From positions 1 through 44,851 of IMG/VR virus record IMGVR_UViG_3300046721_000135: 44,851 nucleotides of DNA. One strand, given 5' to 3'. The position numbers were made by a program, and so were the translations under genes. Below the pieces are notes generated by a model. It was not told the DNA's origin. It ran no database searches and saw only the letters and a program-made list of their open reading frames with translations. Positions 6,876 to 24,410 of the stretch are shown one piece after another; position 1 is the stretch's first letter; every line of letters starts with the position of its first letter. This DNA is from a virus.

Positions 6876-7196
6876 ATGCAAACCCCCAGATGGCTCCGAT
6901 GGCAGCGCCAGCCGGTCCCGGCGGACCCCAAAATGGTAGTGGCCCGTTCGGATGAAGCCGCCCGCTTTCTGCAATCTGAATTGCTTGTGAACTTTTTCTC
7001 TAATACTGAGGAAGCCTTGGTAAACCGCTGGCGTTCCACCTTGCCGAACGACACCGAACAGCGCGAGCGCATCTACATCCAGATGCAACTCCTGGATAAC
7101 TTTAAACTCTACATGGAAGCCACCATCGATGATGGCCGGATGGCCGCAACCATGCTCGATCAACTGCTTACTGGCCAGCGAGACCAGGCCTACTAG
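6876..7196 (+). CDS. Small head-associated protein, 106 aa
   Basis: The protein (MQTPRWLRWQRQPVP...) is mostly helical, with FLQSELLVNFFSNTEEALVNRW and ERIYIQMQLLDNFKLYMEATI. It lies between portal and scaffold, which suggests a head-assembly accessory role. GGTAGGAG precedes the ATG. No known domain is recognised. The antisense ORF at 6855-7598 that covers this region is a shadow. Confidence 0.65.
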   Translation: MQTPRWLRWQRQPVPADPKMVVARSDEAARFLQSELLVNFFSNTEEALVNRWRSTLPNDTEQRERIYIQMQLLDNFKLYMEATIDDGRMAATMLDQLLTGQRDQAY

Positions 7197-7206
7197 GAGA
7201 ACCACG

Positions 7207-8184: not shown

Positions 8185-8209
8185 CGGATAGGCCACAAGG
8201 AAAATCCCG

Positions 8210-9121
8210 ATGGCCATAATCTCAGGTGGTTTTTCAAGTTACCTGGCTATAGGCAATCGCGAGGACCTGTCCGACATCATTCACAACATAGCCCCGGTTG
8301 AAAACTGGCTCGTCAGCAACTCTGGCGAGACCAAAGCCACCCAACGCTATCACGAATGGCAGACCGACACCCTCGCGACCCCCGCAGCCAACGCCCAATT
8401 CGAGGGCAACGACTATTCAGCAACCATTATCGTCCCCACTACTAGGCTTGGAAACTATACTCAAATCCTGGCAAAAACGTTTGCAATCACCCGCACTCAG
8501 GAAGTCACCGACAAAGCCGGGCGCAAGTCTGAACTAGCCTATCAAACCGGGCTCAAGCTGAAAGAACTAGCCAACGACATCGAGTATGCCCTGATTGTCA
8601 ACTCAGCCAGCGCATCCGGCGCTACCGGCACAGCCCGCCAGTTGAAAGGCGCGTTGGGCTGGATCTCGACCAACAACACTACCGCTTCTGCTACCACTGT
8701 CTATTTCACAGAAGCGAACCTCCAGGCCAACCTGCAGCTTGTCTGGGCCGCAGGTGGAAAACCCCAGCACCTCGTGATGGGAGCCCTCCAGAAAACCAAG
8801 TTTGACGCCTTCACCGGAAACAACACCCGGTTCTTGAACATGCAGCCAGCCCAGGTCCAGTCCGCTGTCGAGGTCTACAAGTCCTCGTTCGGAAACCTCA
8901 CGGCTCACCTGCACTTCATCATGAACCAGAGCGCTCAAGCCGACAAGGTCATCATCTTTGGAGACATGAGCTTGTGGCGCAAGGCGTACCTCCGTAAAGC
9001 GGAACGCATCCCCTTGGCTGTTACCGGCTCATCCCTGCGGTTCCTGATTGAGACAGAACTCACTCTGGAATGCGGCAACGAGCTAGGCGCAGGCAAGGTT
9101 ACTGCGATGGCTGCAGCTTAA
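8210..9121 (+). CDS. Major capsid protein (DUF5309/SU10-like)
   Basis: The 303-aa product has the opening NREDLSDIIHNIAPVENWLVS and the central VTDKAGRKSELAYQTGLKLKELANDIEYALI. Both are characteristic of the DUF5309 / SU10-type major capsid family with an HK97 fold, where the first motif follows a short N-arm. GATGTARQLKGALGWIS in the middle also fits. AAGGA lies 8 bases before the ATG. The position after the scaffold supports the call. I recognise the family by motif, not by search. Confidence 0.9.
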   Translation: MAIISGGFSSYLAIGNREDLSDIIHNIAPVENWLVSNSGETKATQRYHEWQTDTLATPAANAQFEGNDYSATIIVPTTRLGNYTQILAKTFAITRTQEVTDKAGRKSELAYQTGLKLKELANDIEYALIVNSASASGATGTARQLKGALGWISTNNTTASATTVYFTEANLQANLQLVWAAGGKPQHLVMGALQKTKFDAFTGNNTRFLNMQPAQVQSAVEVYKSSFGNLTAHLHFIMNQSAQADKVIIFGDMSLWRKAYLRKAERIPLAVTGSSLRFLIETELTLECGNELGAGKVTAMAAA

Positions 9122-9178: not shown

Positions 9179-9493
9179 ATGCTGATCAAGACCAAAACGC
9201 CTGGAGTATTAATCTCGGACATGGACTACACAACCCAGTGGCACAGAGGCACAAGCCACGACACCCACGAGACCACCTATCTCGAAGACGTGAAGCCCAT
9301 TCAAGCCAGGGTCAACATGCTGAAGAACCAGACAGACAATGGGTTTACAATTGACCGCACCATGCAGCAAATCGGCCTGATCCCCATCACCATCTGGGTA
9401 GCTCATCCCGAGTTCCGCGAAGACCCACGCACTCTCGACAAGTGGCTGAAATCTGAAGAAGGCGCTCCTTACCGAGTCGCCAAAGGAATCTAG
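9179..9493 (+). CDS. Small structural protein downstream of coat, 104 aa
   Basis: The protein (MLIKTKTPGVLISDMDYTTQ...) has a compact alpha/beta pattern ending PEFREDPRTLDKWLKSEEG. Similar small proteins often follow the coat gene in phages with this capsid family, and a head decoration or completion role is likely. AAAGGAG precedes the ATG. The stop codon shares one base with the next GTG start (TAGTG). Confidence 0.65.
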   Translation: MLIKTKTPGVLISDMDYTTQWHRGTSHDTHETTYLEDVKPIQARVNMLKNQTDNGFTIDRTMQQIGLIPITIWVAHPEFREDPRTLDKWLKSEEGAPYRVAKGI

Positions 9494-11097
9494 TGGCTGG
9501 AATCTATAGCTCAGTCTTAACCGAAACTTCTGTCACCGACCTGCCCTCGTGGGTCTACGATGACCTGGCCAACCCAGACATTTCCCAGATCGACGTTCCC
9601 TGGGGACGGTACAATCTTCCAACGCAAAACGACATCACGCGCGGCAACCTCACCATCGACTGGCACGGCTCAACCCTGGTGCTCGATGGAGCATTGGCAG
9701 GAGTCCACTTCTATTTCAGGTCTACCGTTATTAATTCAGCCGAAGCCAACCACTATTTCCATCTCACAGACCAGATCTATGAAGCGACTACCCAACTGAC
9801 GATGCCGACAATCATAGACCTCTCTCCTGGAGAAATCGTTCAGATCCGGTGCGGGGTCAATACCAGCGACCCCAACGAACCCGTTCGCTATCTGGTTAAA
9901 ACCGTGGATTCTGTCAGCGGAAGCACCGTTACCTTTACCGAGCCCTTTGGCCTGGACATTCCTGTCTATGCCGATGAAACCGCCCTCAAAGCCGTAGTCA
10001 TTGAAAGTCAGTGGAATAAGATCGGCCCTTGGGGAGAAATGACAGCCAACGGCTCATACGGCAACGGTCTCGGCCTAGATCACGGCATGATCCGGTACAC
10101 TGGCGGAATGCAACATGACATCATCTTCAAGAACGCCCACTTTGAAACCCTGATGCCTGCCGACATCGACATCCCGCCAGCCGAAGGAACCGTAATCTTC
10201 GTTCAGGATATCTTAAACTTCAGCCTCTTGAACACCACTGCTTGCAACCTGATCAAGGTTCTGTTCCACAGTTTCCGGTCCGACAACATGCTAGTTGATG
10301 GCCACCGTTTCACTGGCGTAGGCCGAACCAACATAATCGCACCACACAACACCTTTATTGGAACCCTGGTTGCCGCCTGGGGAGGCACTGGCTTGACCTA
10401 CCAGAACATCGAAGTCAAAGGCCAGAACATGGTCATGGCCAACATGGAAATCTTTCCGGTAGACCTCCTGTTTAAGAACATCACTTTCACTACCGACTTC
10501 CGAAGAAACTGGTCCTACAACGCAGCTGCCGTAATGTTTGGCTTCTACAACTGTGCGGAGCGGATCGAAGACTCGACTTTCACCATTACCACCGACTCCA
10601 TCTCCAGCTGGAATCTGGATGCAAACAACTCGCTACTCTTCAAGAACTGCGTGTTCGACGATCCATCCACCTTCTCCAACTACTTTTACTTCCCACGGCA
10701 CACTATTGAAGGCACGATTACCTTTGGCGGAATCACCTACGGCCCACTCACCAGCCGCTCAGACACAGTCACGCGCACAGGAACCGTTACCGGCAAGCAC
10801 ATCATCCCTCCCAGGGGGCTGTACAAGTCACTGACCTACCGGATTCCAACTACTGGAAATTCCTGGGCTTTAGGCGTGGGCTATGGAGGCACGATCTTTG
10901 CCGCTGCCTACGATGCCGTGAACTACACGTCGGTCAGCAACAACTGGCTTCAGATCGCACCGAACACCAGTGATGCAACCCGATACGCAGCCAACGTCTT
11001 TACCTGTTACTTCACAGGCGGAACAGCCTCAATGGTGATGGACTTTCAACTAGAATACTACCCGGCACCCGACGATGTGGGCTGGACAACGGATTAA
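9493..11097 (+). CDS. Beta-helix-like tail spike/appendage protein, 534 aa
   Basis: The sequence after about residue 190 shows short repeating strands with N/D/G turns (IIFKNAHFETL, LTYQNIEVKGQNMVMANMEIF, DLLFKNITFTTDF, LLFKNCVFDDP), the pattern of a right-handed parallel beta-helix. A C-terminal beta-sandwich (TRTGTVTGKHIIPPRGLYKS) may be a trimerisation or carbohydrate-binding part. It probably acts at the particle surface on host glycans. The GTG start overlaps the upstream stop. Its place between the coat and other appendage genes, rather than at the end of the tail genes, is unusual. Confidence 0.7.
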   Translation: MAGIYSSVLTETSVTDLPSWVYDDLANPDISQIDVPWGRYNLPTQNDITRGNLTIDWHGSTLVLDGALAGVHFYFRSTVINSAEANHYFHLTDQIYEATTQLTMPTIIDLSPGEIVQIRCGVNTSDPNEPVRYLVKTVDSVSGSTVTFTEPFGLDIPVYADETALKAVVIESQWNKIGPWGEMTANGSYGNGLGLDHGMIRYTGGMQHDIIFKNAHFETLMPADIDIPPAEGTVIFVQDILNFSLLNTTACNLIKVLFHSFRSDNMLVDGHRFTGVGRTNIIAPHNTFIGTLVAAWGGTGLTYQNIEVKGQNMVMANMEIFPVDLLFKNITFTTDFRRNWSYNAAAVMFGFYNCAERIEDSTFTITTDSISSWNLDANNSLLFKNCVFDDPSTFSNYFYFPRHTIEGTITFGGITYGPLTSRSDTVTRTGTVTGKHIIPPRGLYKSLTYRIPTTGNSWALGVGYGGTIFAAAYDAVNYTSVSNNWLQIAPNTSDATRYAANVFTCYFTGGTASMVMDFQLEYYPAPDDVGWTTD

Positions 11098-11099
11098 TC

Positions 11100-11348
11100 A
11101 TGAGCTTAAAGATCACTGCATTGACTAGACAAAGCCCTGCTCCCTGTCAACACCTTACCTTGACTTCAAATGATAATGGCACCATCAATGTCACCCATGT
11201 TTCCATTCCAGCAATCAAGGCACTGTTTGACCAGTTTCCAGGGGGAAGCCGTGGAGCTTTACTCTTTGCCTGGGCGCAAGATCGGATGGATCGAGGATCG
11301 ACCTTGAATCAACTTGTCAATGTCGAGATCGAATCGGTGATTGTCTAA
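11100..11348 (+). CDS. Small structural-region protein, 82 aa
   Basis: Unknown function. The product (MSLKITALTRQSPAPCQHLT...) has beta-rich N- and C-terminal parts flanking a helix (IPAIKALFDQFPGGSRGALL). The gene lies 2 bases after the preceding stop, and its own stop overlaps the next start as TAATG. Its context implies a virion or assembly role. Confidence 0.6.
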   Translation: MSLKITALTRQSPAPCQHLTLTSNDNGTINVTHVSIPAIKALFDQFPGGSRGALLFAWAQDRMDRGSTLNQLVNVEIESVIV

Positions 11349-12508
11349 TGGCACTACAAAACCTTGTGGGAGATGGAATCTGGTTGCCGACTCTTGAAGC
11401 AGGATTCTCTGGAACCGGCTCTTTGGCGGGTGGAGACACGGCTCTCATTGATGCTGATCAGGAAGAAGTTCAGTTCATCGGGCAGGTAACTATTGATGGT
11501 GGCGGTAGCAAAACCTTTGGCACCTCTGGCTCAAAGATTGGCTGGCTGCCCGGTCCTTCCATCACTCTTGCGGCCAACTCAACCTGCACGGTTGGCGTGA
11601 AGACAGCCGTAGACACCTCCAACGGTCCTCCAGCCAGAGCCACCATCGGCAAGGCCGCTTTCAGCGTCTACAAAGACCTAGTGGGTGGAACAGACACAAT
11701 TACCGCTACCACTTGGCGGGAAGACGCTATGGCCTCTGGAACTCCGTTCACCGTAGCGGATGGAGACTTGATTGCCATCTGCTTTCTTCTGACCACCACT
11801 TCCGGCAGTCCTTCGATAAAAGTTCGCACTTTAACGCCTTCGACTCAATTTGGATTTCCAGCCTGTACTCTAGTTACTTCCGGCCCAACCTATACCTTAC
11901 TTGGTGCTTTAGCCAATGCGATTATCATTTTCGATGATGGGGCAATAGGCTGGTTTGCAGGTACCATACCCTGTTCTGCTGTTGACACTACCAGCGCCAC
12001 GATTGGCAACACCAACATCTTTGGCAACATCTTCCGGGTTCCGTTTACCTGCAAAGTAGATGCCCTATCGGTTACTGTAACCCCTACTGCTGGAGCCGAC
12101 TTCGCGATGGAACTCTACAGCACCCCACTCGGCACTCCAGCCACAGTGGAATCCATCTCTGTCGATCAGAATCTGACTACCGCTACCGCCATCAAGCAAT
12201 TTATGCGCCGCTTAATTACTCCGAGAACCCTGACCATCAACACCGACTACCTGGTCGGAGTGCGGCAGACCACTGGAACCGCTTTAACCATCAGTCAGCG
12301 GGATCAATCGAACGCCTCTTACTTTAAGCCTCTTGGCATGGGAGCTGAATGCTATGCGGCCACTTCTACCGCTGGAGCCACCTTTGCGGCCATCAACTCA
12401 GGAAAGCGCCGTTACATGGCTCATGTCCGTATCTGCGCTTTAGATGATGGAGCCGGAGCAGCTGGCGGTCTCTTGGTTAATCGAGGAATGCGGGGAGGAA
12501 TGGTATGA
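11348..12508 (+). CDS. Beta-rich appendage protein, 386 aa
   Basis: Dominated by short strands with Gly, Thr and Ser (SLAGGDTALIDADQEEVQFI, FCLLTTTSGSPSIKVRTL), and probably a two-domain beta-sandwich virion protein of the tail-fibre or receptor-binding type. No catalytic motif is evident. It ends with a Gly-rich tail (GGLLVNRGMRGGMV) that overlaps the next ATG as ATGA. The role is inferred from composition and location. Confidence 0.6.
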   Translation: MALQNLVGDGIWLPTLEAGFSGTGSLAGGDTALIDADQEEVQFIGQVTIDGGGSKTFGTSGSKIGWLPGPSITLAANSTCTVGVKTAVDTSNGPPARATIGKAAFSVYKDLVGGTDTITATTWREDAMASGTPFTVADGDLIAICFLLTTTSGSPSIKVRTLTPSTQFGFPACTLVTSGPTYTLLGALANAIIIFDDGAIGWFAGTIPCSAVDTTSATIGNTNIFGNIFRVPFTCKVDALSVTVTPTAGADFAMELYSTPLGTPATVESISVDQNLTTATAIKQFMRRLITPRTLTINTDYLVGVRQTTGTALTISQRDQSNASYFKPLGMGAECYAATSTAGATFAAINSGKRRYMAHVRICALDDGAGAAGGLLVNRGMRGGMV

Positions 12509-13566
12509 GACCAATCGTTCGAGGCGCAGCAGCCAATGCAGGCCTGATCTTCCATGTCTTCGCACAAGACAGTGCATCAACCGTTGGGGCTGGAAAAGCC
12601 TCGGTAGCCTACAGTAGCTGGACCTGCTACTACATTCGCAACGGTGAAGCGATCTCAGGCGCAATCACCACTCAGGACATCACGACCATCGGTACCTACG
12701 CAGCCCCCACGGCCAACACCAACATCCGGATTAAAGCCGTAGATAACACCAACATGATCGGGGTCTACGAGGTTCAGATCCACCTTGACTGGGTGAACAC
12801 GACTAACAGTTGCCAGTCCCTGACGATCTACCTAAGCGCAACCGGAGTCGCCGTCTTGCCAATCCAGATCCCTCTAACTGGCTGGGACCCGCAGCTTCTC
12901 CAAGCGACACCAACGAACATTACGGCAGGCACAATAGCCACTGTGACCAACTTGACCAACCTGCCAGCCGTCACCACCGACTGGCTGACAGCGGCAGGCG
13001 TGAAGGCAGATGCAGTCACAAAGATCCAGGCGGGTCTAGCCACACCAACGAATATCACTGCAGGCACAATAACCACGGTAACTACTGTCACTGGTGTCAC
13101 TGGCTTAACTGCCTCAGATGTAGGTGCAATCAAGGTCAAGACAGACAACTTGCCATCCTCTCCCGCAGCCGTTGGCTCGAACATGGGAACCGTCACAAGC
13201 GTCACTGGTGCAGTCGGCAGCGTCACCGGCCTGACCGCCTCAGATGTGGGCGCCATCAAAACCCAGACTGACAAGCTGGCCTTTACCGTCACTAACCAAG
13301 TCGATTCCAACGTGATCGATTGGAAAGGAGCTACGGCACCCGCGATGACCGGAGACGCCTATGCCAGAATTGGAGCGACGGGTTCAGGCCTCACAACCCT
13401 GGCACTAGAAGCCACTGCCCAAGCCATCAAGGCCAAGACCGATGCCCTGGCTACAGCGGGTGATATCGCCGCTGCTGTTGATGCTGCCGTTATCGATGTC
13501 AACATTAAGACAGTCAACAATGTTACCGTCAATGGAGACGGAGCAGGAACACCATGGGGTCCATGA
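12505..13566 (+). CDS. Repeat-containing phage structural protein, 353 aa
   Basis: The N-terminal half is a beta-sandwich-like domain common in phage appendage proteins (FHVFAQDSASTVGAG...). From about residue 130 the protein has repeats: TPTNITAGTI occurs twice and GLTASDVGAIK twice, each followed by KTD/TQTD-like helical pieces, and then a low-complexity alpha segment. Such alternating beta and helix repeats are typical of fibre shafts. ATGA overlap with the gene before. The protein ends with GDGAGTPWGP. Confidence 0.65.
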   Translation: MRPIVRGAAANAGLIFHVFAQDSASTVGAGKASVAYSSWTCYYIRNGEAISGAITTQDITTIGTYAAPTANTNIRIKAVDNTNMIGVYEVQIHLDWVNTTNSCQSLTIYLSATGVAVLPIQIPLTGWDPQLLQATPTNITAGTIATVTNLTNLPAVTTDWLTAAGVKADAVTKIQAGLATPTNITAGTITTVTTVTGVTGLTASDVGAIKVKTDNLPSSPAAVGSNMGTVTSVTGAVGSVTGLTASDVGAIKTQTDKLAFTVTNQVDSNVIDWKGATAPAMTGDAYARIGATGSGLTTLALEATAQAIKAKTDALATAGDIAAAVDAAVIDVNIKTVNNVTVNGDGAGTPWGP

Positions 13567-13567
13567 G

Positions 13568-13960
13568 ATGGCATCTAGCTGGGGAACAAGTTGGGGTACA
13601 AGCTGGGCAAGTAGCTGGGGAGTTATTGATGCTGGAGCAATATCTGCCAGCCTCCAGGGAACCAGCGCCTTATCCGCAACTGGGATTGCAGGCACCACCC
13701 AGCACATTTCAGCGGCTCTCTACGGCATTTCCGGGATGGACGTTTACAATGCTCAAGACCTTACTCGAACGAGCTTTGCGAACCTGGCCGGAACTTCCCG
13801 GTTTACCTCCCATATCCTGGACATTACGCCACCCATCGTTATTCCCAAGCCAGGAGCGGGTCAACCCTCGATTCATGCAGGCAGTCACCCAGTTCGTGGC
13901 CAGTCAGTTCCAGTCAAGGGAAGTTCCAGGCGCGTTCCTGGCAAGGCGGATCGCATATGA
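13568..13960 (+). CDS. Small WG-repeat virion-region protein, 130 aa
   Basis: The N-terminus carries a short Ser-Trp-Gly repeat (SSWGTSWGTSWASSWG), seen at the start of many small phage structural-region proteins. The rest has beta-strand and proline-rich segments. The ATG at 13568 was chosen because the larger ORF (from 13442) would overlap the preceding gene by more than 120 bases. A second frame (13554-13964) is a shadow. Its end overlaps the glycosyltransferase start as ATGA, tying the next three genes to the same transcript. Confidence 0.6.
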   Translation: MASSWGTSWGTSWASSWGVIDAGAISASLQGTSALSATGIAGTTQHISAALYGISGMDVYNAQDLTRTSFANLAGTSRFTSHILDITPPIVIPKPGAGQPSIHAGSHPVRGQSVPVKGSSRRVPGKADRI

Positions 13961-14637
13961 TTGATCTAATCATGCCCACACTGGGAAAACCACACCTCCT
14001 GAAAGCCCTAGCCTCTCTGCGCTATCTGCCCTTCCCGGTGAAGCCGCACATCATCTACGAGGCTTCCAGTTGGCCAGAAGCTATTAATCAAGGCCTAGCC
14101 GACAGTACCGGAGACGTTCTCCTAATGGATGATGACGTCGAGTTACTACCTGACACATTCAAAGACTTTGACTCAGAAGCAGCCGACATCCTGGGATTTA
14201 AACTCCTGTTTCCAGACGAGACCATCCAGCACGCCGGAGTCTTCGTCCATCTTCACGGCGTCGGCCACATCGGCTTCAAGCAACCTGCCACCGAGTTCAA
14301 CTACTCGCAGCGCGTCTGTGCCGTGACAGCCTCTCTCATGTACATCCATCGGGAAGTCATCGACGAGATAGCCCCAGTGACCCAGTGGGATGGCTACCAG
14401 TTTGAAGACACGGACTTCTGCTTTCGAGCGTTTAAGGCGGGCTTCACTCTGGTTACGACACCAGCCACCGCGATTCACCACGAGAGCCAGACCAAGAAGC
14501 TGCTGCCTGACTTCAATGCCAAGCTGCAAACCAACATGAAGAAACTAGCTGAAGCCCACTTCAAGAACGAGTTGTTCTTACACAACCTGATGAGTTATCC
14601 GCGTCCGATCAAGGAGCCCCGTGCCGCCTCGAACTGA
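13957..14637 (+). CDS. GT2-like (GT-A fold) glycosyltransferase
   Basis: This 226-aa enzyme would transfer a sugar from a nucleotide-sugar donor to an unknown acceptor. The metal/donor site is GDVLLMDDDVEL, with Asp at 58-60. Further on, QFEDTDFCFRAFKAGFTL and IHHES match the ED catalytic-base helix and C-terminal His of rhamnosyltransferase-like GT2 enzymes. It is short, lacking a membrane segment, so it is probably cytosolic. It opens the GT2 / radical SAM / GT4 cassette inside the structural operon and overlaps both neighbours. Possible substrates are virion protein, host surface glycan or DNA base; none can be chosen from the sequence. Confidence 0.85.
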   Translation: MIDLIMPTLGKPHLLKALASLRYLPFPVKPHIIYEASSWPEAINQGLADSTGDVLLMDDDVELLPDTFKDFDSEAADILGFKLLFPDETIQHAGVFVHLHGVGHIGFKQPATEFNYSQRVCAVTASLMYIHREVIDEIAPVTQWDGYQFEDTDFCFRAFKAGFTLVTTPATAIHHESQTKKLLPDFNAKLQTNMKKLAEAHFKNELFLHNLMSYPRPIKEPRAASN

Positions 14638-15682
14638 CTACCATCGTTTCCAGAAGTTCAAGGTGCTTGCTCACGCCGAGAAGATCGAGGACATCGTGAC
14701 CAACCGGATGCCTGCCCCAGTCGAGTGGATCATCTATCCCTCGAACATCTGCGGCTACCGCTGTCCTCACTGCATCATGGCTGAGGAGCAAGCCTTACAT
14801 CACAAGCTCCTCTCCCCAGGCGCAATGTTGAAGATCCCGGTAGATGCCAAGCGCCTGGGAATCCAGACGGTGGTCTTCTCCGGTGGTGGTGACCCATTGA
14901 TCAACAAGCTGACTGTTCCCACAGCCTATCAACTCAAACTCACAGGCATCCGAACCGGCATCAACAACCAGGGCTACCTACTGAACGACCCCACTGCCTT
15001 CGACTTCATCCGGTATTCCATTGATGCAGCCAATAAGAAGACCTATGAACAGATCCACCGGTTTGACGGCTGGGATCGAGTCGTCCACAACATCAAGCGT
15101 CACCAACTGCTGCGAGAAGCAGGTGAACAAATCGAGATGGGCCTCGCCTTCCTCATTACTCCTTCCAACTATAAAGAAACCAGCGACTTCTGCGAATGGG
15201 GCCAGCAGTTTAATCCCGACTTCATCCACATTCGCCCCGCCTTCCTAGACAGCCCCTATCTGGACAGCCAGTATCCGGGTGGGGGTCAAGCCTTGAAGGA
15301 AACCATTATTCCTTCGCTGACCGAACTAGGCCGTGAGATGGAGAAGCAGTATCCGAACGTCTACTACCGGGTAGACAAGTTTGAAGGCTACTGGACCCCA
15401 AAACTATATGACAAGTGCCGAGCAACCCCACTGATGGCAGTCACTTCCGGAGACGGAGCTTTCCTGATCTGTCAGGACCGAGGGATCAAGGGCGGAGAAG
15501 AATCCTACCGCTGGGGAGACTATAACTCGCAGACCTTTGACCAGATCTGGTGGTCACAAGAGCATCGAGACGCAATCAGCCAGATTGACTTATCCAGTTG
15601 TCCTCGCTGCGTAGAGAACGGCTACAACGAAATCATCCAAATGGGCTTTATTGACGACAACATGAAGATGGCACTGTTATGA
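14621..15682 (+). CDS. Radical SAM enzyme with SPASM-like C-terminus
   Basis: A 353-aa enzyme of the radical S-adenosylmethionine superfamily. The 4Fe-4S motif is C44-GYR-C48-PH-C51, and VVFSGGGDPL resembles the SAM-binding GGE region. The C-terminal region contains further cysteines (KCRATP, FLICQD and SSCPRC), typical of a SPASM/twitch auxiliary Fe-S domain. The GTG start follows AAGGAG by 4 bases and overlaps the upstream gene by 17 bases; its stop overlaps the next ATG as ATGA. Such enzymes can modify sugars, peptides or cofactors; pairing with two glycosyltransferases suggests sugar or glycopeptide chemistry. Confidence 0.85.
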   Translation: MPPRTDYHRFQKFKVLAHAEKIEDIVTNRMPAPVEWIIYPSNICGYRCPHCIMAEEQALHHKLLSPGAMLKIPVDAKRLGIQTVVFSGGGDPLINKLTVPTAYQLKLTGIRTGINNQGYLLNDPTAFDFIRYSIDAANKKTYEQIHRFDGWDRVVHNIKRHQLLREAGEQIEMGLAFLITPSNYKETSDFCEWGQQFNPDFIHIRPAFLDSPYLDSQYPGGGQALKETIIPSLTELGREMEKQYPNVYYRVDKFEGYWTPKLYDKCRATPLMAVTSGDGAFLICQDRGIKGGEESYRWGDYNSQTFDQIWWSQEHRDAISQIDLSSCPRCVENGYNEIIQMGFIDDNMKMALL

Positions 15683-16842
15683 TGGAACTAGCCTACATAC
15701 ACCCTGATGATGGCGGCTGCACTTACTACCGGGTCAACCTGCCACTCGACACGATGAACGCCAAGGAAGACGCCCGTGTTCACCGCATCGTTCCCCAGGA
15801 CAACCCTGAGCGCATCCAGAAGCTGCTAGAACCCTGCGATATGCTCGTGTTTCCAAGACCCTCCGACCCCACCATGGTCTCGAACATTGCCAAGCTTCAC
15901 GAGAAGGGTAAGAAAGCCATCGTAGACTTTGACGATAACCTCTGGGAAGTCAGTCCTCTCAGCCCTCACTACGCCGACTATGGCCTCCGCAATGTCCAGT
16001 ACAAGCTGCCAGATGAGCCCATGTTAGACCTCTGGACAGATGGCAAAGGGTTTGACATCGAGATGAACAAGCTGCGGCTCCAGGCCGTTCGAGACACGAT
16101 TGAAGCGGCTGACCTGGTCACAACAACCACCGAGTATCTAGCCACTATCTTCCGCCAGTGGAACTCGAAGGTGGCGGTTCTACCCAACTGCCTGGACCTT
16201 AGCCTCTGGCAGAAGCTTCCTCTTCAGAAGCGCACTGACAGCATCCGCTTGTATTGGTCAGGAGGTTCCAGTCACTATGAGGACATCACCCTGCTCTCGG
16301 ACGTCTTCCCCGTAATCTGCAAGAAATATCCAGAAGTGAAGCTCGTCATTGTCGGCCACCTGTTCAAAGGACCATTCAAGGGGGTTCCCGAAGACCGGAT
16401 CGAGTTTCACCAATGGAGCCACACGCTGGCCTATCCTTACAAGTCCGCTATCCTAGATGCCGACATCTCGCTGATCCCGCTCCAAGACACCGAGTTCAAC
16501 CGCTCGAAGTCCGCGATTAAGTGGATCGAGCAGTCCGCCCTGTCCGTCCCTAGCGTTGTCTCCCACGTCACTCCTTACAAAGAGATGGACAATGCTGACC
16601 ACAATAATGCACTATTCGTCGAGAACCATCCTGACGCCTGGATCGAGGCTATTTCCCTCCTCATCGAAGATCCATTACTTAGAATTCGGATTGGGTTGGA
16701 AGCCCGCCGCACTGTTGAACAGCATTACGACATTAACAAAGAGTACGTTCAATGGCTGCACGCATACCAAGGGCTTCTCAACCGGAGACGCCCGATTTCT
16801 AAAGTAAAGGAGCTTCATCATGTCCAAAAACAACACCACTGA
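15679..16842 (+). CDS. GT4/GT1-like (GT-B fold) glycosyltransferase
   Basis: The 387-aa product has the C-terminal nucleotide-sugar domain of GT-B enzymes: RLYWSGGSSHYEDI, then KLVIVGHLFKGPF, and the donor site FNRSKSAIKWIEQSALSVPSV, similar to the E-x7-E region of GT4. The N-terminal acceptor domain contains KAIVDFDDNLWEV, common in phage and bacterial surface-glycan transferases. No membrane segment. It overlaps both the radical SAM gene (ATGA) and the next structural gene (16820), so the cassette has no promoter of its own visible. Confidence 0.85.
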   Translation: MMELAYIHPDDGGCTYYRVNLPLDTMNAKEDARVHRIVPQDNPERIQKLLEPCDMLVFPRPSDPTMVSNIAKLHEKGKKAIVDFDDNLWEVSPLSPHYADYGLRNVQYKLPDEPMLDLWTDGKGFDIEMNKLRLQAVRDTIEAADLVTTTTEYLATIFRQWNSKVAVLPNCLDLSLWQKLPLQKRTDSIRLYWSGGSSHYEDITLLSDVFPVICKKYPEVKLVIVGHLFKGPFKGVPEDRIEFHQWSHTLAYPYKSAILDADISLIPLQDTEFNRSKSAIKWIEQSALSVPSVVSHVTPYKEMDNADHNNALFVENHPDAWIEAISLLIEDPLLRIRIGLEARRTVEQHYDINKEYVQWLHAYQGLLNRRRPISKVKELHHVQKQHH

Positions 16843-17287
16843 AACAGATTTCCTATCTGCTGCATTTAACGCCATCTGTCCTACCTGGATGGGAACCGGG
16901 ATCACCGGTGCTGCGTTTACCGGAGGGATCACCAATATCTACATTGCCCTCCATACAGCCTCAACTGCCTCAATGGGGGAATCTTCTTCTCAAACCACTT
17001 CTGAGACTGTGTATGCAGGTTATGCCCGAGTGGGAGTAGTCCGTACTAGCGCAGGTTGGACAGTCAGTTCCCCAGGCGGCATCGGCACCGTAGTCAACCT
17101 GTCAGCCATCAACTTCCCTCAATGCACTGGCACCTCAGCCCAGATTATAGCTGCTTCAGTCGGTACGTTGACTTCAGGGGCAGGCCAGATCCTGTATCTA
17201 GGAGATCTTTCTGGTGGAGGCTTATCCGTAACCAATGGCGTGACCCCATCCTTCGCAGCGGGAAACCTCTCGATCACCGAGGATTAA
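16820..17287 (+). CDS. Tail-fibre-type structural protein, 155 aa
   Basis: The segment NIYIALHTASTASMGESSSQ followed by YAGYARVGVVRTSAGWTVS matches a widespread small phage tail/virion family (ALHT ... Y-x-GYARVxV pattern). The rest is beta-rich. AAAGGAG lies 7 bases before the ATG. It overlaps the end of the GT-B gene by 23 bases, placing the glyco cassette inside a structural operon. Confidence 0.75.
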   Translation: MSKNNTTETDFLSAAFNAICPTWMGTGITGAAFTGGITNIYIALHTASTASMGESSSQTTSETVYAGYARVGVVRTSAGWTVSSPGGIGTVVNLSAINFPQCTGTSAQIIAASVGTLTSGAGQILYLGDLSGGGLSVTNGVTPSFAAGNLSITED

Positions 17288-17291
17288 GCCG

Positions 17292-17450
17292 ATGGCTGAA
17301 CCACAGGAACAACCCAAGGTGGTAGAAGCTGTGCGTGATTCTCCCACCTTCCATCCTCAAGGCACGGTTATGGAGATCCAGAATGCGGAAGGCCAGAAGA
17401 TACGGTACGTTCTTACTCCTCTTGGTTGGGTTATGGTGCGGGAGTCTTAA
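17292..17450 (+). CDS. Small protein overlapping the spike signal peptide, 52 aa
   Basis: The ORF reads MAEPQEQPKVVEAVRDSPT and ends with a beta-like stretch (KIRYVLTPLGWVMVRES). GAGG lies 9 bases before the ATG, 4 bases after the preceding stop. The last 68 bases overlap, in another frame, the signal peptide of the large spike. The protein reads as natural, and small proteins ending in a similar hairpin are seen in phage tail regions. Function unknown. Confidence 0.55.
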   Translation: MAEPQEQPKVVEAVRDSPTFHPQGTVMEIQNAEGQKIRYVLTPLGWVMVRES

Positions 17451-20400
17451 GGCTGCAACCTACTACGTTGCCAAGACTGGGAGCGGAACTGCCTGCACAA
17501 TAGGCAGTCCCTGCCTGACGGTAGCCGTTGGACTGGGCAAACTTGTAGCTGGCGACACCCTCGTCATTCACGCTGGCAGTTACAGTGAAACCATCGGGTT
17601 CTTCGGAACCAACATCCCAGCCGGTATCTCAGACCTACAGCGCACCGTCATTCAAGCCGCCACAGGTGAAACCGTCACCTTAAACGAAGTCGACATCTAC
17701 AGCCGCTCCTATATCACCATCCAGGGCATCACCTTTAATGGCAATGTCTGTCGAATCGGCCGTAACGCAACCACTGACGCGGCGGCCACCTTTGTCACCT
17801 TCGACACCGTCACGGTTCAGAACTGGGTCGGTGGCGGGAGTGGAGCTGGAGCCATCATGCCCGGATTCCGTCAGGAAGGCATCTCGTCCAACCTCCTGAT
17901 CAAGAATTGCAGTTCCCACAACAACGGGTCAACCAGCCTGGATCATGGCCTCTACATCTCCACCCAAGACGTGACCGTTGATGGCGGAACGTTCTACTCT
18001 AACGCTGGCCACGGCATCCAGGTTTATACTTCAGGCCAGGCCACAGCTACCAATAACACCGTGATCAAGAACACGATCACTCACGACAACGGCTCCTACG
18101 GAATCGGCCTCTATTCGGGCGACAATCTGAGAGCCTACAACAACATTGTCTACCACAACGGCATTATTGTTGGCAGCACAGGTGGCCTCAGAGTCAGCGC
18201 CAGTTCAGGTTCCCCTGCCACCAACCCTCTGATCTTCAACAACACCGTGTATAACAACACCGGCTATGGCATCCGCCTGGAAGTCGGCGCTTCCAACGTC
18301 AACATCCGGAACAACATTTCTTATAACAACTCAGGCGTAGAAATCAGCGATGCTACAGGAGGCAGTTTAGCCGCTTCCAACGTGGCCAACCGGAACAACC
18401 TGTGCGACACCTTGATAGCAACCCTCTGCGATGGCGGAAACCCACTGTTCGTCAATGCAGCGGCGAATAACTTCCAGCTTCAGACCACCTCGCCAGCAAT
18501 CAATGCAGGAACCAGTTTGTCCACCGTGACCACTGACTTTGCCGGAGTTTCGAGACCCCAAGGCTCTGCCTATGACGAGGGAGCCTATGAATACGTGCCC
18601 GCGATTCCCCCGGCCACTGGCTGGACCCAGTTAACCAATACTTCTATCAGGCCACTTTGCCCAGCCGGAATCAACGGCAATTGCGACAAGGTAACGCTGG
18701 CCTGGGCTTCAGGTGCCTTCGACACCTTACGCAACCGACTGCTGATCATGGGTGGAGGCCACACAGACTACGAGGGCAACGAGATCTACTCGTTAGATGT
18801 GACCCAACTGACGATGACTCGGATTACCAATCCAGGAACACCGGGAGCAAGCGACGCTCAATACAATGGAATTGATCCCTTCACCAATAAACCAAACTGT
18901 CCGACTTCGCTAGTCGGTGGAACTCAACCTAACAGCAACCATACTTACGACAGCATGGTCTACATGCCTAATGTTGACAGGATGTGGTACAAGCAACAAT
19001 CAAATGCAGTCTGTGGTATCGGCAGTGCAGAAGGATGGCAGTTCAACATGGCTACTAATGCCTGGGAGCACAAGTCTTCTCTGCTAATTCCAAGCAATAC
19101 CGGTCCAGGCTTGATGGGTTCTTACGACCCAACCAGTGGCAAGGTCTTCTACCACGGCAACTTCGATCTTCTGAGCTACAACCCTCTGACAGACACCTAT
19201 GTTAAGCTGACTAACAATGGAACCGGCTTTAGTAGAACAGATTGGATGACCTCCGTTATCGATCCTACCCGGCACCGCTTCTACCTAATGGGCGGTGGTC
19301 AAGGTGCCCTCTACTACGACCTCACTGCTCCCTACGCCCGGCACAACATCAACCAGACTGGAGGAACTGCAATCACTCAATCCGGTCAATCGGGTGGTCC
19401 TGGACTTGCCTACGACTCAGCTATTGACCGAATTGTGGGCTGGGCCGGAGGTGACACGGTTTACCTCTACGATGCCAACACAGACAGTTGGACGAGTCAG
19501 ACCTTTACAGGTGGACCCGGAGCTTCCAATATCAACGGAACCTATAAGCGTTGGGCCTACTCACCGGCAAGCGATGTCTTCGTAGTGGTCAACTCGGTAG
19601 ACAACAATGCCTACAGCTTAAGACTCAGTCCTCCGGTAGCAGATACGGTGGCCCCTTCGGTTCCCACCAACCTCGGAGCAAACACGGTTTCTAACGTTGA
19701 GATTGACTTGGCATGGACTGCTTCTACCGACAATGTGGGCGTGGCAGGCTACCAGATCTACCGCAATGGCTCTCAAGTTGCCCTGTCACCAACCAACAGC
19801 TATCAGGATACTGGCCTGACTGCTTCGACTACCTACACCTACACCGTGGCTGCCTACGATTCCTCTAGCAACGTGTCTGCCCAATCCACCAGTGCCTCAG
19901 CCACAACCGGAGCCGTGGTCAACCCATCCAGTTCCAACTTCCAGATCAGTTCCACGGCTTCAGGAACCTTGCCCTTCACAGTCGGCCTGATCTTCAAGAA
20001 AGGTGATATCCCGAACTTCCCGATCCTCGACATCGCAGAGTATCAAGTCGTGGTCAAGCGCCGCTGGAATGACGGTTCTGTCAAACACGCCATTGCTTCA
20101 GGCCAAACTGCTTTAACCGCCAACGTGCTGAAGACGATTACGGTATCCAACTCAACCGCTGCTCCCACAGGAACCGCTCTGACTTCAGCCGACATCACGG
20201 CAGCGAACCCGGTAGCCACCGTGCAGCTAGGCTCTATCGGAACAGCCAATCTATCCAGCCTGTTTGCGACCCCGTTTAGAACCTGGCTGGCCGGTCCAGA
20301 GATGGTGGAATGCCATTACCGTACTACCATCGGCGGATCACCAGGTCTCAACGTCTGGTTCTACGTGCGATTCTACAAAGCAGGCCGAATCTGGATCAGG

Positions 20401-21879
20401 GCCATCGTGGAGAACGGCTATCTCAATGTTTCGACCGACAACGGAACCACGATTCCCAACATTACCCAGACCTATTTACCTCTTGTCAATATCGGAGCGA
20501 ACGGAGTCTACAACAACAACGGCTTGCCTCTAACCCACTACGGCTTCACCCGCTGGTCAGCAGAAGGCTGGGTCAGCGGTGGCTTCCCGGACGTAATCCC
20601 AAAGCACAACAGCCAGTACCTGATGGATACGAAGCTCGTGCCTAACTACTGGAAGCGCAGTCCGAGTGCGACCGTTCTCAACAGCCTGCTCCAGACCTAT
20701 ACCCAGATGTCTAACGGCAGCATGAACGCTAACATGGGAGACACCGGCTTCCAGTCCATGATTGGTCTACTACCCACCTGGGATGCACTCTACGTGACCT
20801 CAACCGACAGCCGAGCCTATTACGCGGTACTGGCCAACAGTTCCTCGTTAAACAGCTACCCTATCGTGTGGCGAGATAGTAGTACCCAGCTTCCAGCCAC
20901 TCCAGCCAACTGGCCTAGCTATGGAATTGATGGCGGAACGTTCGGCAAGTGCGCTGGCTCCAACTGCTGGGAGATGAACCACGCTCCCTCTGAAGGCTAC
21001 CTGGCCTACTTGTTGACCGGCGACTACTGGCATTACGAAACCATGGAGTTTAATGCAGCCTTGAATTACCTGGCCTTAAACACCAGCCATGGAGTCGGAC
21101 TCAATAAGCTGCTGACCTCGCAGACCCGTGGCACAGGCTGGAACCTGCGTACCCTGGTCCAGTTTGACGCGGTCTGTCCATCGGGTGATGCGGTCTGTTT
21201 CGACTATCAAACTCTGCTAGCCAACAACATGACTCAATGGCTTGCCGTCAGTGCCACACTTCCATCGCCATCGTTAGGCGACATCTACGAATATGACGAT
21301 CCTTATGGAGGTGGCAAGGTAGCTCCGTGGCAGCAGCACTTCTGGATTCAGTCGGTCGGTATGGGGTCCGATCTTGAACCGTTGGTTAACATGTCCACTT
21401 ACAACCAGGTTCGTGACTTCCAATACAAGTGGCCCATCGGTATCCTGGGTGACTCTTCCAACTTCTACTTTACATACGCTTCCTTGTTCAACCTGAAGGT
21501 CACTCCGGCCAGTTCAGGTCTGGTGCTTACAGGCTTCTACCCAACCTGGGCGCAAGCCTGGGCAGGGAACATCACGGCTGGCTTAATTGTGAGTCCAACC
21601 TTTAACAACACCTTGCAGGGCACCTCTGGCAGCGATCCTCTCAATGCCTCCACAGGCTACTGGGGAAACCTGATTCCTGCGATCGCCTATGCCGTTGACC
21701 ATGGAGCCACAGGAGCTTCGGCAGCGTGGTTGCGCTTAACTGGAGCTACCAACTGGTCAGCAGTCGGAGGCAGCGGCTTTGACGATATTCCGACCTGGGG
21801 GATTGTGCCAAGAACCGTGATTCAGGCACCTCCTCCAACACCACCGGCTCCACCGACTGGCTTGATTAAGATAAACTAA
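17383..21879 (+). CDS. Giant modular tail spike / polysaccharide-degrading protein with signal peptide
   Basis: The 1498-aa protein probably recognises and cleaves host surface polysaccharide. From ATG 17383 (GGAG 7 bases upstream) it starts MRKARRYGTFLLLLVGLW and has a Sec-type signal peptide ending near SLKA-ATYYV. Next comes a right-handed beta-helix (about 25-405: LRAYNNIVYHNG, NIRNNISYNNS), then a kelch/galactose-oxidase-like region (about 410-750: RNRLLIMGGGHTDYEGNEIY). An FN3 domain follows (about 755-845: PTNLGANTVSNVEIDLAWTA). A large C-terminal part has a beta domain and an alpha/alpha-barrel-like piece (NHAPSEGYLAYLLTGDYWHY, then QTRGTGWNLRTLVQFD) resembling rhamnogalacturonan- or heparinase-type lyases. 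A GTG at 17335 is an alternative start. No start codon lies between the signal peptide and mature sequence, so the signal seems genuinely part of the protein. Confidence 0.8.
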   Translation: MRKARRYGTFLLLLVGLWCGSLKAATYYVAKTGSGTACTIGSPCLTVAVGLGKLVAGDTLVIHAGSYSETIGFFGTNIPAGISDLQRTVIQAATGETVTLNEVDIYSRSYITIQGITFNGNVCRIGRNATTDAAATFVTFDTVTVQNWVGGGSGAGAIMPGFRQEGISSNLLIKNCSSHNNGSTSLDHGLYISTQDVTVDGGTFYSNAGHGIQVYTSGQATATNNTVIKNTITHDNGSYGIGLYSGDNLRAYNNIVYHNGIIVGSTGGLRVSASSGSPATNPLIFNNTVYNNTGYGIRLEVGASNVNIRNNISYNNSGVEISDATGGSLAASNVANRNNLCDTLIATLCDGGNPLFVNAAANNFQLQTTSPAINAGTSLSTVTTDFAGVSRPQGSAYDEGAYEYVPAIPPATGWTQLTNTSIRPLCPAGINGNCDKVTLAWASGAFDTLRNRLLIMGGGHTDYEGNEIYSLDVTQLTMTRITNPGTPGASDAQYNGIDPFTNKPNCPTSLVGGTQPNSNHTYDSMVYMPNVDRMWYKQQSNAVCGIGSAEGWQFNMATNAWEHKSSLLIPSNTGPGLMGSYDPTSGKVFYHGNFDLLSYNPLTDTYVKLTNNGTGFSRTDWMTSVIDPTRHRFYLMGGGQGALYYDLTAPYARHNINQTGGTAITQSGQSGGPGLAYDSAIDRIVGWAGGDTVYLYDANTDSWTSQTFTGGPGASNINGTYKRWAYSPASDVFVVVNSVDNNAYSLRLSPPVADTVAPSVPTNLGANTVSNVEIDLAWTASTDNVGVAGYQIYRNGSQVALSPTNSYQDTGLTASTTYTYTVAAYDSSSNVSAQSTSASATTGAVVNPSSSNFQISSTASGTLPFTVGLIFKKGDIPNFPILDIAEYQVVVKRRWNDGSVKHAIASGQTALTANVLKTITVSNSTAAPTGTALTSADITAANPVATVQLGSIGTANLSSLFATPFRTWLAGPEMVECHYRTTIGGSPGLNVWFYVRFYKAGRIWIRAIVENGYLNVSTDNGTTIPNITQTYLPLVNIGANGVYNNNGLPLTHYGFTRWSAEGWVSGGFPDVIPKHNSQYLMDTKLVPNYWKRSPSATVLNSLLQTYTQMSNGSMNANMGDTGFQSMIGLLPTWDALYVTSTDSRAYYAVLANSSSLNSYPIVWRDSSTQLPATPANWPSYGIDGGTFGKCAGSNCWEMNHAPSEGYLAYLLTGDYWHYETMEFNAALNYLALNTSHGVGLNKLLTSQTRGTGWNLRTLVQFDAVCPSGDAVCFDYQTLLANNMTQWLAVSATLPSPSLGDIYEYDDPYGGGKVAPWQQHFWIQSVGMGSDLEPLVNMSTYNQVRDFQYKWPIGILGDSSNFYFTYASLFNLKVTPASSGLVLTGFYPTWAQAWAGNITAGLIVSPTFNNTLQGTSGSDPLNASTGYWGNLIPAIAYAVDHGATGASAAWLRLTGATNWSAVGGSGFDDIPTWGIVPRTVIQAPPPTPPAPPTGLIKIN

Positions 21880-23435
21880 TGGGTATAGCGAGACTTTTAG
21901 CCAACACAGACAACTTTGATCGGGCAAACTCCAATAGCCTGGGAGCCAACTGGGGAGACATTACCACCTCGGGAGGAAACGGCGCTCTCCACATTGTTTC
22001 TAACGCCGTCGGTCATGGGGCGGGTGGAAACAATGGCGGGTCATCAGCCCGATGGATCGGCACAGGCACATTTACCAACGATCACTGGTCTTCTATCCAG
22101 CCAGCCTGGGTTAATTCAGGAACCTGGTTTGGAGCCATTGCTAGGGCTTCTGCGGATCAAGATGCCAACCGGGATTACTACCTGTTTCAAGTTCAAGACA
22201 CTGGACCAGGAAGCGCCTATCGACTGGTTAGCGTCGTCAATGGAACCACCACGGTTCTCAAGAGTGGCACGGTCAATGCAGTAGGCTCAGTCGATATTGA
22301 AGTAATCGGAACCACGATCAACGGCTGCTTAAGCGGAGTCGTGATTGATACGGCAACGGACTCTACGCCTACGCTGACTACTGGCTCCCCTGGCATCTGG
22401 CAATCCGATGTCACCCCCTTGATGGACAACTGGCAAGGCGGAAGCCTGGTTACGGTCACCGATATTCCCATGACTCCGGGTCCAGCAGGAGTGGGGACGA
22501 TAAGCGGAACCCTGTTAGGGGTAACCTCCCTTTCCGTTACCATGGCCGGAACTGGAGCCTTAACTCAAGTTTCCAATATCAAGATTATTTCATGTCAGAT
22601 GGCTGGAGTTGGAACTCTTACTCCTGGTCTAGCCTTCTACACCAACTCCACCTGCCATATGTACGGTGGCTGGTCGATGGGAACCGTGAAGCTGGCATGG
22701 AATCCTAATACCGAGTCAGACCTGGCAGGCTACAAGATCTATATCGGCACCTCATCAGGGATCTACAACTATGCCACCTCGCCCTATGTGTCTCCAGTCA
22801 ACGTGGGCATGGTGCAGACCTTTACCTTCCTCTTGCTTCCTGGAGGAGTGACCTACTACTTCGCCATCACAGCGTTTAACTCCACCGGTCAGGAGTCGGC
22901 CTTCTCGTCAGAACTAGCAGTTCCCATCGAGACCTATCATGCCTACTCAATGACCTTGACTGGATCTAATGTGATCTCGGGCTCATCAGCAGGTACGGCG
23001 CAACTGGTAGGTCGTTTGGACAATGTGGGTGGATTAATCTTAGACCTGACTGTGGGGACTGGAGGCATGGGCAATCTGACAGCCTTTGGCTTGGCCAACA
23101 AAGCTGGAGCCATGTCTGCCTTCCCTAACTTGGAAGCCATGGCCTCAAGCTCAATGACCTTGACGGGTACAGGAGCATTGATCCGAAACTCTCAAGGTCA
23201 ATCTGCTGGAGCCTTAACTGGAACATTGGTAGGAACTCAAGGTCTGACAATCCCAGGTTCAGCGGCAGGTGTTGGAGACATGCAGGGAACCCTGACGGCG
23301 ACTGGGTACATGTCCATCGTGATTACCGGGCGAGGTGTGATGTCCATCCACTCCTTTACCCAGGTAGGAATGCCTCAGAAGCAATATCGCACCAAGTTAC
23401 AAGCCGGAGAAGTCCACAGTTCACCGAAGAGGTAG
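21879..23435 (+). CDS. LamG-like / FN3 tail appendage protein, 518 aa
   Basis: Residues 1-190 (DNFDRANSNSLGANWGD, then ARASADQDANRDYYLFQVQD) match a concanavalin/laminin-G-like jelly roll found in carbohydrate-binding phage and bacterial proteins. An FN3 domain lies at about 267-352 (VKLAWNPNTESDLAGYKIYI). The rest consists of Gly/Thr-rich strands (VTMAGTGALTQVSN, MTLTGTGALIRNS). The start overlaps the spike stop as TAATG. Probably binds sugar on the host surface. No catalytic residues visible. Confidence 0.7.
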   Translation: MGIARLLANTDNFDRANSNSLGANWGDITTSGGNGALHIVSNAVGHGAGGNNGGSSARWIGTGTFTNDHWSSIQPAWVNSGTWFGAIARASADQDANRDYYLFQVQDTGPGSAYRLVSVVNGTTTVLKSGTVNAVGSVDIEVIGTTINGCLSGVVIDTATDSTPTLTTGSPGIWQSDVTPLMDNWQGGSLVTVTDIPMTPGPAGVGTISGTLLGVTSLSVTMAGTGALTQVSNIKIISCQMAGVGTLTPGLAFYTNSTCHMYGGWSMGTVKLAWNPNTESDLAGYKIYIGTSSGIYNYATSPYVSPVNVGMVQTFTFLLLPGGVTYYFAITAFNSTGQESAFSSELAVPIETYHAYSMTLTGSNVISGSSAGTAQLVGRLDNVGGLILDLTVGTGGMGNLTAFGLANKAGAMSAFPNLEAMASSSMTLTGTGALIRNSQGQSAGALTGTLVGTQGLTIPGSAAGVGDMQGTLTATGYMSIVITGRGVMSIHSFTQVGMPQKQYRTKLQAGEVHSSPKR

Positions 23436-23438
23436 CCC

Positions 23439-24410
23439 ATGATCACCGTCATCAGCGTCTTTGATTTAGAGCCAGGAGAAGTCAGAACCTTTCAGCATGA
23501 CTGGTCAGACAATGTGGTGTCTCCGTCCACTGTCAATGGTGTTACCGTAACTGCTGTAGACTTGCTGACTGGCCTGGACGGAACATCCGATGTGATTGCA
23601 GCGACTGACCTTGCGGGGAGTATCACTACCGTCACCCTTCAGAAACTAGTTGGTAAGGGTTCCACCAGCTATGACCTCAAGCTTCAGATGGTCAGGACCG
23701 ATGGGGAAACCTACATTGACCATTATCTAGTGACCGCCGACATTGACAAGACCATCTATGCCTTGGTGGATAGAGCTTTGAGACTCCTGGGTGTCAGGAA
23801 CATTGGCACCCGCCTGAGTCCAGAGGAACAGGAGCAAGGCCTGGAAGGACTGAACACGATGCTGCTGTCGTGGTCAAGCGAACGAATGCTGGTTCAATCT
23901 ACAGTGGTTGATGTGTTCCCTACCGTGGCAGGTACCTCAGTCTACACGATTGGCCCAGGTGGAGACATTGACACGGTTCGTCCAGAGCAGATCCTGTCAG
24001 GTTACATCGTGTCTAACTCAGTGAGCTTCCCGCTGGCACCTCTGGGACCAGAGGGCTTTGACGCCATCCAGTACAAGGACACTACGATGGTTCCGAACAG
24101 CTTCTTCTACGACAATGCTGTGCCAATGGCGACGGTAACGTTAAGCCCCATTCCTGACGCTATCTACACCGTCAGCTTGCGTTCAATCAAAGAGATGACG
24201 AACTACTCGACGGTAGCGATTAACCATGGGCTTGAAGGTGACTACGAGAATGCCGTGAGTTATAACCTGGCCATCCACTTGGCCCCCAAGTACGGAATGA
24301 ATGCGGCTCCTGAAGTGGTAGCCATAGCAGCACAGTCTGCCAGCCGCCTGATTAACGAACGGTTCGGCAAGCTCGATGCCACTCTCGATGCTGGGTTACT
24401 GGTAAGCTGA
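23439..24410 (+). CDS. P22 gp4-like tail adaptor with N-terminal beta-domain fusion
   Basis: Residues from about 105 (IYALVDRALRLLGVRNIGTR, then LNTMLLSWSSERMLV and ENAVSYNLAIHLAPKYGM) match the P22 gp4 / tail accessory factor family. That protein rings the portal and helps keep DNA inside. P22 gp4 is about 166 aa; this one is 323 aa because a beta-sandwich of about 100 residues (FDLEPGEVRTFQHDWSDNVV) precedes it, similar to small phage neck or baseplate domains. It is translated in tandem with the gp10-like gene. Confidence 0.85.
   Translation: MITVISVFDLEPGEVRTFQHDWSDNVVSPSTVNGVTVTAVDLLTGLDGTSDVIAATDLAGSITTVTLQKLVGKGSTSYDLKLQMVRTDGETYIDHYLVTADIDKTIYALVDRALRLLGVRNIGTRLSPEEQEQGLEGLNTMLLSWSSERMLVQSTVVDVFPTVAGTSVYTIGPGGDIDTVRPEQILSGYIVSNSVSFPLAPLGPEGFDAIQYKDTTMVPNSFFYDNAVPMATVTLSPIPDAIYTVSLRSIKEMTNYSTVAINHGLEGDYENAVSYNLAIHLAPKYGMNAAPEVVAIAAQSASRLINERFGKLDATLDAGLLVS

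Follow-up and report, generated by a model that had tools for sequence, protein, structure and literature searches.

Virion glycosylation has, to our knowledge, been demonstrated in few tailed phages only. Serotype-conversion systems of the Gtr type consist of a membrane flippase (GtrA), a polytopic GtrC, and a membrane-anchored GtrB. In this study, we analyzed the virus record IMGVR_UViG_3300046721_000135, whose full length of 44,851 bases is hereafter called the window, and in particular a cassette of three overlapping genes that encode a GT2 glycosyltransferase (GT), a radical S-adenosylmethionine (SAM) enzyme (hereafter rSAM), and a GT4 glycosyltransferase. The cassette is most readily explained, at a probability of about 60% and on the evidence of gene content and context, as one variant of a virion-glycosylation locus that is polymorphic, goes with one clade of the major capsid protein (MCP), and would use rSAM to alter a sugar.

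Glycans on the capsid and tail-tube subunits of mycobacteriophages are described in two papers (PMC12619734; PMC11256854, both citing Freeman 2023). In these systems, among them that of Che8, phage-encoded GTs were proposed or shown to decorate capsid and tail subunits. The window is comparable in that its GT genes are linked to virion protein genes, GT4 being linked to the MCP gene. In Maravista, a related mycobacteriophage, the GT genes lie close to the genome end (PMC11256854). Compared by placement, not by sequence, the window differs: its GT genes are located in the head block behind MCP, have exchangeable partners, and are accompanied by rSAM. In pelagimyophages, variable GT genes and genes for radical SAM enzymes are found near fibres and were read as lipopolysaccharide modification (PMC7029224). 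Like the window, these cassettes combine variable GT and radical SAM genes near the structural genes of environmental phages; unlike the window, they belong to T4-like myophages and are located beside tail fibres (PMC7029224). The complete podophage genome of Podoviridae sp. ctQWt234 (MW202801) contains, in its annotation as deposited, an MCP-rSAM-GT2-PhyH-methyltransferase-NodB-GT4 cluster. Its distant homologues of rSAM (23%) and GT4 (24-27%) are directly downstream of MCP, a location equivalent to that of the locus studied here, whereas its gene order is different, it has more enzymes, and its MCP has no match to the window MCP. The Gtr cassettes share phage-encoded GTs of the GT-A type with the window, but the cassette of the latter has no GtrA/GtrC-like membrane protein and occupies a late structural position. 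None of the cassette proteins corresponds to GtrA, GtrC, or a membrane-anchored GtrB.

Integrity and recurrence of the three-gene cassette

The cassette comprises the following genes (lengths in amino acids, aa).
13957..14637, + strand: GT2, soluble GT-A glycosyltransferase, 226 aa (Pfam PF13632)
14621..15682, + strand: rSAM, radical SAM enzyme, 353 aa, GTG start (Pfam PF04055)
15679..16842, + strand: GT4, soluble GT-B glycosyltransferase, 387 aa (PF00534/PF13692; phrog_7162, E 5.6e-44)

The three proteins matched Pfam domains over the curated cut-offs (Glyco_trans_2_3, E 6e-7; Radical_SAM, 4e-8; Glycos_transf_1, 6e-10). PHROGs held no family for GT2 or rSAM, and NCBIfam gave only matches far under its cut-offs. 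The ratio of nonsynonymous to synonymous substitution (dN/dS) was determined against the sister phage L002 (IMGVR 3300046713_000202), which has the identical gene order. The values were 0.085 for GT2, 0.049 for rSAM, and 0.053 for GT4, with a higher value of 0.093 for MCP; because of this purifying selection, the three open reading frames (ORFs) are considered real genes.

Motif invariance was checked in five phages that carry all three genes. In GT2 (PF13632, 29.9 bits; cut-off 27), the D58-D59-D60 motif, a DxD-type metal motif, was invariant in 5/5 phages. The predicted GT2 model (predicted local distance difference test [pLDDT] 75) has a GT-A fold, and its matches include ppGalNAc-T2 (Z 16.4), WrtF (15.9), and GlfT2 (14.3). 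GT4 scored above the cut-offs of both PF00534 (39.4 bits) and PF13692 (37.6 bits). The first-pass annotation, made from the sequence alone, had described an intact GT-B donor site in GT4. At this site, only the second Glu (E284) of the EX7E motif is kept and the first position is Ser. K277, S278, and K281 are invariant, and E284 sits within an F-N-x2-K-S-x2-K-W-x-E motif. No cassette protein contains a hydrophobic segment (maximum 19-residue hydropathy 0.92-1.11), which marks all of them as soluble. The overlaps are, in order, 4 bases with the upstream gene, 17 between GT2 and rSAM, 4 between rSAM and GT4, and 23 with a gp80-like fibre gene. ORFs, Pfam domains, invariant motifs, and purifying selection all agree with the intact cassette that had been annotated, and the measured overlaps fall in the 4-23 bases that had been given for them. 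No terminator-like site was found on the + strand between MCP and the head-tail adaptor gene. Since promoter and terminator scans yielded fewer sites than shuffled sequences did, an internal promoter is not claimed.

The GT2-rSAM-GT4 order recurs in three other lineages: L024, L118, in which the three genes stand in that order, and L023, in which an extra gene gives GT2, methyltransferase, rSAM, GT4. The complete order in L024 is terminase, portal, scaffold, MCP, a 122-aa gene, GT2, rSAM, GT4, and adaptor. In all three lineages MCP and a small gene immediately precede the cassette and the adaptor immediately follows it, with no fibre genes between, and the cassette genes overlap by 4-7 bases. 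Identities to the window proteins are 60-64% for rSAM, 41-42% for GT2, and 35-45% for GT4, and 44-48% for the MCPs of L023 and L024. The earlier description of the cassette as lying among tail genes is thus valid for the window, which has fibre genes on both sides, but not for the relatives, where the arrangement is coat gene-cassette-adaptor. Placement in an early operon, which would weaken the idea of virion modification, was found in no relative.

The same position bears on DNA hypermodification, in which the transferases would glycosylate the bases of phage DNA. Base glycosylation is an established role of some phage GTs; however, the cassette is located among head genes, and no thymidylate-synthase-like or other base-modifying gene was seen among the larger ORFs scanned, which makes this role hardly credible. 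Modification of the particle rather than of DNA, as first proposed, is more likely, as the cassette sits with virion genes.

Linkage to the coat gene and exchange of the middle genes

The neighboring genes considered here are as follows.
8210..9121, + strand: MCP, HK97-type (phrog_1328, E 2.9e-78)
9179..9493, + strand: 104-aa gene, possible small head protein (homologues in L022, L024, L027, L028, L029)
13568-13960: gene upstream of GT2, overlapping it by 4 bases
16820..17287, + strand: GP4 gp80-like fibre protein, neighbor outside the cassette (Pfam PF23140, 1.3e-9)
23439..24410, + strand: head-tail adaptor, Ad3-like, distal border of the insertion slot (phrog_637, 5.4e-10)

A virome scan with a GT4 alignment, not conditioned on MCP, gave 77 newly fetched loci, including a few re-fetched contigs or near copies. 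Of the loci whose upstream DNA extends to 4 kb or more, 69/70 had an MCP of the same family upstream on the same strand. L119 (IMGVR_UViG_3300037190_000525) is the sole exception among them: no MCP was matched upstream, and the adaptor is directly downstream. Conversely, GT4 was present in 9/9 near-clade MCP relatives with downstream DNA. L035, which is long-branched and of unsure placement, has no GT4 within its 2.4 kb downstream. The GT4 carriers form one MCP clade in the tree (100/100 support), PF13692 was found in 0/44 records outside this clade, and the GT4 and MCP trees have identical supported groups. Other head genes behave differently from this pair: the portal and terminase of the window match phages without the cassette and have no match in L023, L024, L027, and L028, and two portal types alternate inside the GT4-bearing clade. 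Both the window and L024 portals belong to phrog_1216, which rules out that they are unrelated; they are very diverged relatives instead. In the close relative L020 (IMGVR_UViG_3300049227_000006), the MCP gene is split after codon 22 by approximately 815 bases (L020:4453-5267). This insert matches the group I intron family (RF00028, E 3e-10; 45.8 bits, just short of the gathering score, which is 50). On the opposite strand it contains a 179-aa ORF that is HNH endonuclease-like by eye.

The cassette therefore tracks with the coat gene when coat and fibre genes are compared. The fibre glycosylation originally suggested, with the adjoining gp80-like or beta-helix fibres as substrate, is quite unlikely. 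It would agree with the fibre-like genes that flank the window cassette and with the 23-base overlap with the gp80-like gene, but the two occur apart from each other: L006, L007, L008, and L084 have the gp80 fibre gene without the cassette, and L022-L024 and L027-L030 have a cassette locus without gp80. Relatives also carry the same cassette with no adjoining fibre gene. Moreover, the large fibre-like proteins of the window and L002 diverge (72-84% identity), whereas GT4 is steady at 99%.

The genes between MCP and GT4 are exchanged. L024, L029, and L030 have MCPs that are 87-89% identical and GT4 proteins that are 65-73% identical; the place held by GT2 and rSAM in L024 is taken in L029 and L030 by an unrelated GT-A-like enzyme. 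Across the clade, this interval encodes other GT1/GT4 and GT2 enzymes, methyltransferases, a nucleotidyltransferase, and a protein with a weak sulfotransferase match. More distant loci add a relative of epimerases and GDP-mannose dehydratase, a UDP-glucose-dehydrogenase-like protein, hexapeptide domains, a kinase-like protein, and a short-chain dehydrogenase. The slot thus contains glycan enzymes that are exchangeable beside a constant GT4. The window-type rSAM and GT2 were found only together in the loci examined. The GT4 gene of L029 (7137-8287) lies in two overlapping frames (7137-8051 and 8003-8287), owing to a frameshift or a sequencing error.

Class and likely substrate of the radical SAM enzyme

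The window rSAM belongs to the radical SAM superfamily (PF04055, 34 bits; cut-off 29.5). C44-x3-C48-x2-C51, C266, C284, C327, and C330 are invariant in 5/5 phages, and C44, C48, and C51 are also kept in an alignment with distant relatives. The enzyme had been labeled radical SAM-SPASM. The first half of this label is correct; a full SPASM domain is not present, as only four Cys (C266, C284, C327, and C330) follow residue 191, the seven-Cys pattern of the SPASM subfamily, which has two auxiliary clusters, is not matched, and Pfam SPASM (PF13186) gave no match for the window protein. The L024 homologue scored 20.0 bits, under the PF13186 cut-off of 21.5, and the distant relative L004 passes it. 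The number of C-terminal Cys residues, a 'twitch'-like count, would suffice for one auxiliary iron-sulfur cluster, which is predicted here. Cys count and spacing fit the twitch arrangement C-x(15-20)-C ... C-x2-C, in a C-terminus that is modeled at pLDDT under 50. The match of the model to BtrN (4m7t), which typifies the twitch enzymes with one auxiliary cluster, has a Z of 15.3, below those to DesII, SkfB, and BlsE.

The best phmmer match of solved structure was DesII (E 2.7e-7, residues 29-206). The substrate of DesII is a nucleotide-sugar. DesII, the dTDP-4-amino-4,6-dideoxyglucose ammonia-lyase (PDB 8HZV), is also the top fold match of the rSAM model (pLDDT 72, weak C-terminus), with a Z of 21.7 over 293 aligned residues at 4.4 A, at an identity of approximately 18-19% that does not permit the reaction to be deduced. 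As DesII, SkfB, and BlsE are within 1 Z of one another, the fold alone does not distinguish a sugar from a peptide substrate.

Pattern scans of genome contigs, in which only pattern-matching relatives could show, revealed no close cellular homologue of rSAM; distant relatives on bacterial plasmids were found with tblastn. On a Solidesulfovibrio plasmid, the relative is clustered with pseB/pseC, a transketolase, and a sugar nucleotide-binding protein. A Streptomyces plasmid has it beside a UDP-galactopyranose mutase and a DegT aminotransferase, and an Azospirillum plasmid with epimerases and carbamoyltransferases. The distant relatives in other phages (19-24% identity) adjoin C-methyltransferases, transketolase halves, and short-chain dehydrogenases. 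By guilt by association, which is consistent across these clusters, a sugar is the likelier substrate of rSAM.

Peptides are frequent substrates of SPASM-type enzymes. rSAM might accordingly modify a peptide or a virion side chain, in a sactipeptide- or epimerase-like reaction, and the GTs glycosylate the product, a chemistry that would suit the close fold similarity of the model to SkfB and SuiB. It is nevertheless very unlikely: the cassette has no precursor-peptide gene and its genes overlap without a gap, rSAM is seen only alongside this GT2, and both the best sequence match, DesII, and the sugar clusters of the rSAM relatives point elsewhere. The 'glycopeptide' chemistry mentioned in the first-pass annotation found no specific support.

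One distant rSAM branch recurs in pairs with split transketolase-like genes, both in phages and, beside pseB/pseC, on the Solidesulfovibrio plasmid. Possibly, this pairing represents a conserved sugar pathway step. The phage loci are as follows.
L014:9992-12909: rSAM and split transketolase-like genes
L015:9992-11663: rSAM and split transketolase-like genes
L016:3140-5850: rSAM and split transketolase-like genes
L106:7362-10071: rSAM and split transketolase-like genes

Proposed role of the locus and its genome setting

The following mechanism is proposed for a virion-glycosylation locus. The cassette genes would be read together with the structural genes. Because the enzymes are soluble and no terminator-like site lies on the + strand of the interval, they are probably produced alongside the head proteins and work in the cytoplasm, where GT4 and GT2 would transfer sugars from host nucleotide-sugars to a particle protein. 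The likeliest substrate is either the coat protein or the product of the small gene behind MCP. GT4 may make a constant linkage, and GT2 and rSAM may extend and alter the glycan, rSAM changing one sugar by, for example, dehydrogenation, epimerization, or deoxygenation. Related phages exchange GT2 and rSAM for other transferases and modifiers and retain the coat protein and GT4, so that the exposed glycan would vary on a constant shell. We infer the timing of expression, the modified protein, the order of the steps, the sugar and its chemistry, and the benefit from gene content and position. More tentatively, and at slightly less than even odds, a coat clade of HK97-fold phages would carry a polymorphic coat-glycan locus, composed of a constant GT4 and of exchangeable transferases and sugar modifiers, with an unusual, rSAM-made sugar on the shell and near-identical capsids differing in their glycans. 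Such a locus would be the phage counterpart of the bacterial O-antigen locus.

Several points weigh against this proposal. The linkage to MCP could be explained by ordinary late-gene synteny, and a host-surface enzyme in a tolerant slot would give the same linkage. The MCPs of the clade were examined for Ser/Thr enrichment and showed none. The window cassette has no adjoining nucleotide-sugar pathway, and the sugar donors must therefore be host-made. The rSAM fold matches include, at similar Z, the peptide enzymes SkfB and SuiB.

O-antigen conversion is the role of many phage GTs, and the cassette might alter the O-antigen or another glycan of the host surface and thereby block superinfection or the sticking of particles to debris. 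The bacterial relatives of rSAM are located in surface-sugar clusters, and the GTs of the hypervariable host-recognition cluster in pelagimyophages, which has radical SAM cassettes nearby, were interpreted in this way (PMC7029224). The fixed position behind the coat gene at 69/70 loci and the confinement to one MCP clade would, however, be unexpected for such a function. In addition, the cassette lacks a membrane protein like GtrA or GtrC, the genome has no integrase match, and late expression would leave the host surface little time for change. We therefore regard host-surface modification as unlikely and favor virion glycosylation.

The window carries a perfect direct repeat of 127 nt at its two ends and, on account of this repeat, looks like a complete genome. 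Its genes mark it as a P22/GP4-like short-tailed phage. The structural genes assigned with PHROGs are the large terminase, portal, scaffold, MCP, adaptor Ad3, head closure Hc3, and ejection protein, and the replication genes encode Sak4-like, exonuclease, HNH, and primase/helicase proteins. No phage integrase was matched across the genome, and an Rfam scan of the window gave no matches. The 104-aa gene behind MCP is common to several members of the MCP clade. In the window lineage, the fibre-like genes lie at 9493-13960 and 16820-23435. Large fibre-like proteins (beta-helix, fn3) have N-termini resembling Sec signal peptides (MRKARRYGTFLLLLVGLWCGSLKAAT in the window), which is odd for tail proteins, as these assemble in the cytoplasm. 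They are encoded at the following positions.
Window 17383-21879: fibre-like protein with Sec-signal-peptide-like start
L002:12763-17268: fibre-like protein with Sec-signal-peptide-like start
L023:15722-18133 and 18127-19848: fibre-like proteins with Sec-signal-peptide-like start
A possible 51-aa gene, read by eye at 17293-17448 of the window (ATG GCT GAA CCA ... TAA), overlaps the start of the gene for a protein of 1.5 kaa.

In the open-licence literature searched, neither a coat-linked swappable GT4 locus nor a role of radical SAM enzymes in glycosylating virions was found described, and earlier accounts elsewhere are possible. If the proposal is true, the phage-encoded rSAM would represent a sugar-modifying step of a new type. 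A locus on one coat clade that recurs across dozens of environmental phages and exchanges its enzymes on an unchanged coat would allow the diversity of capsid glycans to be tested from sequence. It would also raise the question of what selects for glycan diversity in phages, which encounter no immune system; protist predation, particle sticking, host receptors, and host defences are candidate selective forces.

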